Positions 44,093 through 48,999 of a stretch of DNA of 64,000 nucleotides are shown in pieces. Source of the stretch: Novosphingobium sp. (lineage in GTDB: Bacteria > Pseudomonadota > Alphaproteobacteria > Sphingomonadales > Sphingomonadaceae). The first letter of the stretch is position 1; every line of letters starts with the position of its first letter. A program made the translations under genes and the position numbers. Under the pieces are notes generated by a model, which saw nothing but the letters and a program-made list of their open reading frames with translations, had not been told where the DNA came from and made no database searches. Where the stretch lies: assembly GCF_020852455.1 (NCBI RefSeq), contig NZ_JADZAT010000032.1, positions 62,001 through 126,000 of the forward strand, in the 5' to 3' direction.

Positions 44093-44202
44093 CGTCGAAC
44101 TCCTGAACTCTTCGCTCCCGATATAGGGAGACCTGCGCTGAATAACAGCTGAAGCGGCGCCATGCCTTAACTTTGGTCAAATTCGCCAAATGGCGAAATT
44201 GC

Positions 44203-44288
44203 GCACCACCGGCCCGCTCCCCCCGGCCCGACCACCCGCGACAGGGTACCCTATGGGTGGTCGGGCAGGGGGAGCGGGCCGGTGGTGC
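44203..44288. repeat. Long stem-loop repeat, family R3 copy A
   Basis: GCACCACCGGCCCGCTCCCCCCGGCCCGACCACCC - GCGACAGGGTACCCTAT - GGGTGGTCGGGCAGGGGGAGCGGGCCGGTGGTGC; 21-bp perfect outer and 12-bp perfect inner arms. Confidence 0.92.
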
Positions 44289-44326
44289 AACGTCGATCGC
44301 CAGGCGATCGACCGAAACAAAAAGCG

Positions 44327-44845
44327 TCAGATCCGTTCGGCGAGACGGATTGCAAAGCGGCAGCCCAGGCGGATTGCGCCCGACAGCAGCGGGTAAGCCG
44401 GGGCCTGTTCGGCACCCGCCGCCAGTGCGGTGTCGCGGTGGGCGCGCTCATCCTCGCGAAATTCCTCGATCAGCGCGGAGAGTTCAGGATCCTGATCGCC
44501 CAGCTCGTCGAGCTGCTGGGTATAGTGACGGTCGATCTCTTCCTCGACCGCGGCGGTGCAGGCCATCGCCGCCTTGGGACCGATCAGCGCGGTGGCTGCG
44601 CCCAGCGCAAAACCGGCCACGTGCCAGAACGGCTGCAAGGCGGTGGGGCGGACCCCGCGTTCACCCAGCAGCGCGTCGAATTTGGCGCGGTGCGCGGCTT
44701 CCTGTTCGGCCATGTGGCGGATCTCGCCAGCCAGGGCCGCGCGATCGCCCATCACCGCCAGCTGCCCGGCATAGATCCGGGTCGCGCCGTATTCGCCGGC
44801 CTGATCGACCCGCAGCATCCGCTCGGTAGCGGCCCGCCCGCTCAT
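44327..44845 (-). CDS. coq7: Demethoxyubiquinone hydroxylase family protein
   Basis: LRVDQAGEYGATRIYAGQLAVMGD, HMAEQEAAHRAKFDALL, EEEIDRHYTQQLDEL, EFREDERAHRDTAL. Confidence 0.93.
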   Translation of the reverse strand: MSGRAATERMLRVDQAGEYGATRIYAGQLAVMGDRAALAGEIRHMAEQEAAHRAKFDALLGERGVRPTALQPFWHVAGFALGAATALIGPKAAMACTAAVEEEIDRHYTQQLDELGDQDPELSALIEEFREDERAHRDTALAAGAEQAPAYPLLSGAIRLGCRFAIRLAERI

Positions 44846-47951: not shown

Positions 47952-48374
47952 TTATCCCGAACGATGATAGGGATGGCCAGCACGAATGCTGGTGGCGCGC
48001 CACAATTGTTCGGCCAGCATGGCCCGCGCCAGCATATGCGGCCAGGTCATCGCCCCGAAGGCGATCAGCAGATCGGCCTCGCTGCGAGCCTTGTCGCCAT
48101 GGCCATCGGCCGCGCCAATCAGGAACCGGACCTCGCGCACGCCCTCATCGCGCCATTTGCCGAGCAGCTCCGCGAAATGCTCGCTCGACAGCTGCTTGCC
48201 GCGCTCATCAAGCAGCACGGTGCGCGAATGGGCCGGAGCCGGCGGCACGGTGCCGCCCTGATCGGGCAGCTCGGTCTGGCGGAACGGCCAGGCCAGCCGC
48301 TTCACGTACCGTTCGACCAGCTCGGCCTCGGGCGAGCGACCGATCTTGCCGCGAGCGATAACGTGCAGCTGCAT
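47952..48374 (-). CDS. rlmH: 23S rRNA (pseudouridine1915-N3)-methyltransferase
   Basis: MQLHVIARGKIGRSPEAELVERYVKRL; LLDERGKQLSSEHFAELLG; FLIGAADGHG. Confidence 0.93.
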   Translation of the reverse strand: MQLHVIARGKIGRSPEAELVERYVKRLAWPFRQTELPDQGGTVPPAPAHSRTVLLDERGKQLSSEHFAELLGKWRDEGVREVRFLIGAADGHGDKARSEADLLIAFGAMTWPHMLARAMLAEQLWRATSIRAGHPYHRSG

Positions 48375-48412
48375 CAGGTGCGTGGTTCGCGCGAGCTACC
48401 GCTCGCGCTCAC

Positions 48413-48580
48413 GCAACACCGGCCCGCTCCCGTGTCACGAGCGCGGAAACGTCCGGGGGACGTTTTCGTCGGGGCGCCCCGGCCACCCATAGGGTACCAT
48501 GAACGGGTGGTCGGGGCGCCCCGACAAAACGTCCCCCGGACGTTTTGCGATTTCGGAGCACGGGAGCGGGCCGGTGTTGC
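48413..48580. repeat. Very long stem-loop repeat, family R3 copy B
   Basis: GCAACACCGGCCCGCTCCCGTG / 12-13 nt internal loop / AAACGTCCGGGGGACGTTTT-GTCGGGGCGCCCCG-CCACCC with matching right arm; loop ATAGGGTACCATGAAC; ~60 bp paired in total. Confidence 0.93.
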
Positions 48581-48603
48581 ATCCAGCCGAAAGGCTGGAA
48601 AAG

Positions 48604-48999
48604 TCATGCGGTGCCCGAATCTCCGAACGCCCACATCCGCTCGAGGTTGTAGAAGCTGCGCACTTCGGGGCGGAACAGGTGGACCACCACGTCGCCGGCA
48701 TCGATCAGCACCCAGTCTGCTGCGGGCAGGCCTTCGATCCGGGCATGGCCAAAGCCGCCCTGCTTGATCCGCTCAGCCAGCTTCTGCGCCATGGCGGCGA
48801 CCTGGCGGGTCGAGCGACCGCTGGCGATCACCATGTGATCGGCGATCGAGCTCTTGCCTTCAAGCGGGATGGAAACCAGCTCCTGCGCCTGGTCATCGTC
48901 AAGCGACTTCAGCACCAGTTCGTGGAGCGAGCCCGGCTCTGATTCAGGGAGCGGGGTGGGGGTTGCGGCTGTGGCCGCAGTGGGTTGCGCAGGCGTCAT
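48604..48999 (-). CDS. rsfS: Ribosome silencing factor
   Basis: LHELVLKSLDDDQAQELVSIPLEGKSSIADHMVIASGRSTRQVAAMAQKLAERIKQ; WVLIDAGDVVVHLFRPEVRSFYNLERMW. Confidence 0.95.
   Translation of the reverse strand: MTPAQPTAATAATPTPLPESEPGSLHELVLKSLDDDQAQELVSIPLEGKSSIADHMVIASGRSTRQVAAMAQKLAERIKQGGFGHARIEGLPAADWVLIDAGDVVVHLFRPEVRSFYNLERMWAFGDSGTA

Follow-up and report, generated by a model that had tools for sequence, protein, structure and literature searches.

Intergenic hairpins of Novosphingobium as probable IS5-type mini-elements with a conserved palindromic core

Two palindromic units behind coq7 and rsfS

The window, a stretch of 64,000 nucleotides from Novosphingobium sp. (contig NZ_JADZAT010000032.1), carries two strong palindromes, A and B, each of which lies just 3' of a minus-strand gene: coq7, involved in ubiquinone biosynthesis (PF03232; 44327-44950), and rsfS (PF02410; 48604-48999). 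Palindrome A is a real stem-loop, formed by the inverted repeat 44203-44228/44263-44288 around an apex loop of 17 nt, and its apex GGTACCCT reads on the plus strand; the inverted repeat of B covers 168 nt on the minus strand (48413-48580). Both are far beyond chance: folded as DNA, the 142-nt region of A reaches z = -10.1 against dinucleotide shuffles, and B reaches z = -17.0. The original prediction had treated A and B as the shorter and the longer version of one stem-loop family, with this same placement behind the two genes, and this proved correct: the outer arms are alike at 18 of 19 positions (95%), and the reverse complement of A has CCACCCATAGGGTACC in common with B.

The 86 nt of 44203-44288 are the core only of a longer unit. 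On either side of each core stands a further hairpin (in A, at 44178-44201 on the left and at 44292-44312, GTCGATCGCC..GGCGATCGAC, on the right, as judged from the fold), giving inferred whole units of 147 bp for A (44180-44326), which fits the 141-154 bp of intact copies, and of 227 bp for B (48377-48603). Each unit is bordered by TCA on both sides, at 44177-44179 and 44327-44329 for A and at 48374-48376 and 48604-48606 for B, and in each case the right-hand TCA is the TGA stop codon of the minus-strand gene, coq7 or rsfS, which thus abuts the element; at the other end of B lies the start codon of a gene for an rlmH-like SPOUT methyltransferase (PF02590; 47952-48374, minus strand). These borders are putative target-site duplications which, at 3 nt, are weak alone and could be chance, and neither A nor B has a recognisable pair of terminal inverted repeats (TIRs). 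B corresponds to A except that each arm contains an additional hairpin module (48447-48466, AAACGTCCGGGGGACGTTTT, and 48526-48545); four other copies of the same genome have this module in one arm only.

Both sites are variable among relatives. Detailed examination of 29 relatives showed no core at site A, and at site B the nearest empty relatives have a gap of 11-31 nt. In four species of the genus the interval between rsfS and rlmH (48375-48603 in the window; L210, L226 and L230, our handles for loci) is occupied by different members of the family or by a remnant that has lost its core, and in others it is empty, a mixture that points to repeated insertion or loss.

Distribution of the family

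With a covariance model made from 76 cores, we identified about 21 cores in the 3.29-Mb draft genome that contains the window; adding the long and partial copies detected by BLAST brings the number to about 26, so A and B belong to a family of many members and not of two. The genome sequence used comprised the surroundings of the copies, together with a few sampled regions. In the genus Novosphingobium, matches occur in 51 of 60 genomes, with 0 to 75 hits per genome (both strands counted), corresponding to 0 to about 37 copies. Beyond the genus, the family is present in 17 of 289 genomes sampled across the class, distributed over about a dozen families, and in 12 of 399 genomes sampled across the phylum, all of them Alphaproteobacteria. 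Scanning all genome contigs for an exact pattern gave at least 120 loci; among the matches listed, the records with a name at class level or below were alphaproteobacterial. Copies are also found on Novosphingobium and Sphingomonas plasmids. Such a patchy spread is the pattern of a mobile element.

Several observations concern where the copies lie within genomes. All 17 copies on a 3.53-Mb contig of another genome (G046, contig C1) fall within 1.39-3.07 Mb (P = 1.4e-4), in a cluster surrounding the GC-skew minimum near 2.4-2.5 Mb, on the origin side; beside this minimum, the segment 2520001-2532000 has 41.6% G+C in a chromosome of 65% G+C and is probably a genomic island. In the genome of the window, 17 of the 26 copies are on contigs C32 and C28, which together make up 20.6% of it. 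Most of the 'viral' matches (L176-L204, from IMG/VR contigs) look like clusters related to gene transfer agents (GTAs), and in six GTA-like clusters the same gene, for a major tail protein of 135 aa, has a copy immediately upstream (for example L188:3363-3444 and L194:10906-10983), which could reflect a hot spot or common ancestry. Apart from the genes of these clusters, no recurrent gene was found beside the copies.

Ends, target duplications and stop codons

The nature of the family is best seen in other genomes, in which well-preserved copies measure 141-154 bp, carry the TIRs GAGNCCGTTTGAAA (also written GAGNCYGTTTGAAA) and are flanked by identical TNA triplets (TGA, TAA, TTA or TCA), as in the intact copy TGA-GAGACCGTTTGAAA...TTTCAAACGGTCTC-TGA. 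These intact units are short and contain no transposase gene. The sequence outward of the cores is enriched for transposon-like ends, and recognisable GAGNCYGTTTG.. TIR pairs were kept in 17 of 291 sampled cores, from several genomes, A and B not being among them. Although these 17 were picked without looking at their flanks, the flanking 3 nt are identical in 10 of them, and TNA or TA is found on both sides in 15. In some other alphaproteobacteria the ends read TA-GAGCGTTTTCC. The same hairpin core is associated with at least three kinds of termini: GAGNCYGTTTG with TNA, GAGNCYGATCCG with TNA, and GAGCGTTTTCC with TA.

Complete IS5 elements of the genus share these ends. One of them (L320) is 1243 bp long, ends in GAGCCCGTTTGATA/GAGTCCGTTTGAGA, with a match of 13/14 to the ends of the mini-element, and is bordered by TCA on both sides; another (L296), of 905 bp, has GAGGCCGTTTCGAAA (12/14), is likewise bordered by TCA on both sides and adjoins a copy. 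Both encode proteins of the NF033580 IS5 transposase type, with DUF4096 and DDE domains. A second end subtype (..GATCCGAA) is found on the IS5 element L318 as well as on one copy of the family, L357, and in genome G005 a matching transposase is present and an IS5 element abuts a copy. The matching ends and the TNA duplications lead us to infer that the associated transposase is of the IS5 family; DUF559, considered as a partner, found no support in the literature searched. The presence of DUF4096 does not predict copy number, being found in 12 of 17 copy-rich and 12 of 21 copy-poor genomes of the genus (P = 0.51). In the genome of the window no DUF4096 transposase was found, and its one divergent IS5-like gene lacks matching ends; with the ends of the copies also decayed, the element is probably immobile there and its copies are probably relics.

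The target also accounts for the placement. In the genome of the window, 22 of the 24 copies analysed lie beside the 3' end of a gene, with the core mostly 17-46 nt from the stop codon, and the wider set is alike; this distance equals the length of a TIR plus a side hairpin, meaning that the element itself abuts the stop codon. Of the 17 end-defined copies, 8 have as their duplication the stop codon that closes a coding-like frame, whereas among TNA sites in the vicinity this holds for 4 of 160 (P = 5e-7). Since TGA and TAA are themselves TNA, insertion into them recreates the stop, the protein is left intact, and the insertion is tolerated; what remains of the placement is explained by counter-selection of insertions that fall within genes.

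Taken together, these features indicate that the family very probably consists of MITE-like, non-autonomous IS5-type elements, in which two variable hairpins flank a conserved palindromic core. The proposed unit of about 150 bp would read TIR (GAGNCYGTTTG..), hairpin, long palindromic core with the apex GTAYCCT, hairpin, TIR. An IS5-family transposase acting in trans would bind the ends, move the unit and duplicate the TNA target (TA in some lineages); an insertion into TGA or TAA would duplicate the stop codon, leave the protein intact and so be tolerated; and the copies of the window's genome would descend from such insertions. After insertion, the arms may be kept complementary by template switching or by conversion, either from one arm to the other or from copy to copy.

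Upkeep of the palindrome and comparison with known systems

The two arms change together. Compensatory differences, first suspected from A and B, recur in many of the family's copies. Of the 33 stem pairs, 12 are altered on both sides and, in the alignment, cells with change on both sides number 190, versus 48 after shuffling and 7-35 in slid controls. The search pattern partly determined stem pairs 7-19, which means that conservation there is ascertained, and conservation of the apex was likewise set in part by this pattern and by the choice of orientation. The clearest cases come from orthologous sites. Between L021 and L038 a whole new outer arm is mirrored on the opposite side, and the left hairpin is wholly different; the arms likewise change in step between L012 and L247 and between L026 and L044/L081. 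At the site of L021 and L038, another species carries a chimaeric core (L168:1476-1563) whose left and right arms are of two different arm types. In genome G045, three units (L286, L293 and L295) have the same ends, inner stem and apex and different outer arms (CACCCACCACCCCGCACCCCCGG), so that the arm modules are exchangeable. Arm covariation this strong, extending to the same site in different species, argues that the stem is genuinely kept palindromic. In contrast, G.U pairs are not favoured over A.C pairs on the transcribed strand (49 versus 77, in a wobble analysis of tandem copies), and this gives no sign of selection on an RNA fold. The original proposal that the structure is maintained therefore holds at the level of DNA and finds no such sign at the level of RNA; the arms would be corrected as DNA.

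One feature goes beyond what a MITE requires: its TIRs alone should suffice, yet core and apex are conserved, without proven reason. A possible, although doubtful, answer is that the core leads an independent existence as a DNA parasite and swaps one set of ends for another, and the association of one hairpin core with at least three IS5-type termini would then mean that it hitches onto successive transposases. Template switching would keep its arms perfect, and the core itself would be needed, for instance as a replication- or cruciform-linked enhancer, instead of serving as passive filler.

That the hairpin is a functional RNA, a terminator or a stabiliser of mRNA 3' ends, selected as such and only incidentally mobile, is unlikely. 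The fold is indeed very stable, the cores mostly lie 8-46 nt behind stop codons, and the recurrence upstream of the GTA-like tail gene would suit a role in expression of this kind; however, the placement is accounted for by TNA targeting, the wobble pairs show no preference for G.U, the apex occurs in both orientations (17 same and 10 opposite in the wider set), there is no U-tract, and orthologous sites are mostly empty. Rfam contains no family that reaches its threshold with these sequences, the best matches being microRNA hairpin models far below the gathering score.

A partnership with a RAYT (TnpA_REP) transposase, raised in the original prediction, was not substantiated, and it is very improbable that these are REP- or REPIN-type palindromes moved by such a Y1 HUH enzyme. 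The family is palindromic, extragenic, dispersed and 3' of genes, and Y1_Tnp is found in 18 of the 60 Novosphingobium genomes, including 6 of 17 copy-rich and 2 of 21 copy-poor ones; but PF01797 has no match in the genome of the window nor in 11 of the 17 copy-rich genomes, the association with copy number failed the co-occurrence test (P = 0.11), no Y1 gene recurs beside copies, and units of 141-154 bp whose TIR ends make target duplications do not have REP features. Least probable of all is a host-owned DNA site, a protein-binding or chromosome-organising palindrome spread by selection near the origin, as the conservation of core and apex across families and the clustering of copies (origin-proximal in G046, on two contigs in the window's genome) are set against copy numbers that, inside a single genus, range between 0 and about 37, presence in only 17 of 289 genomes of the class, sites that are not conserved, and transposon ends with target duplications.

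If the family consists of IS5-type mini-elements, as we favour, widespread and very strong intergenic hairpins of the Alphaproteobacteria are explained as inserted elements, and hence ought not to be taken for native terminators or small RNAs. A simple rule for harmless insertion also emerges, by which an element that targets TNA duplicates the stop codon that it hits. Furthermore, arms whose changes are coupled, even at one and the same chromosomal site, offer a natural test system for the upkeep of long palindromes in bacteria.

How does this family compare with the small repeats already described? In the literature searched, from which ISfinder and subscription journals were out of reach, we found no described family of this kind in sphingomonads or other alphaproteobacteria. 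(i) RUP and BOX of Streptococcus pneumoniae are likewise small repeats between genes; movement of RUP is attributed to IS630-Spn1 acting in trans, and BOX is modular and strongly folded. Unlike them, the present family is related to a different IS family, has a TNA target that includes stop codons, and possesses a single long conserved core. (ii) RIME of Rhizobium and Bru-RS of Brucella are palindromic intergenic repeats of about 100 bp, also from Alphaproteobacteria; the likeness drawn here is one of description, and kinship is left aside. (iii) REPs and REPINs with their RAYTs share the position of extragenic palindromes behind genes and a copy number that is high and variable; in contrast, our family has no RAYT in the window's genome, ends in TIRs with target duplications, forms units of about 150 bp, and no GTAG/CGTC tag was seen in it. 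(iv) The closest likeness is with the IS5-family MITEs that have IS427/IS1031-like ends, which similarly have no coding capacity, TIRs matching IS5 elements, duplications of 2-3 bp (TA or TNA), many copies and intergenic positions; the alphaproteobacterium Paracoccus is known to harbour elements of the IS427 group that have 2-bp duplications (PMC3281130). Here, unlike in those MITEs, almost the whole unit is palindromic, with a core stem of about 35 bp and two side hairpins, and core and apex are conserved between bacterial families whereas the ends and side hairpins vary. The element is best described as a mini-element of the IS5 type whose unusual traits are its almost wholly palindromic make-up and its preference for stop codons.
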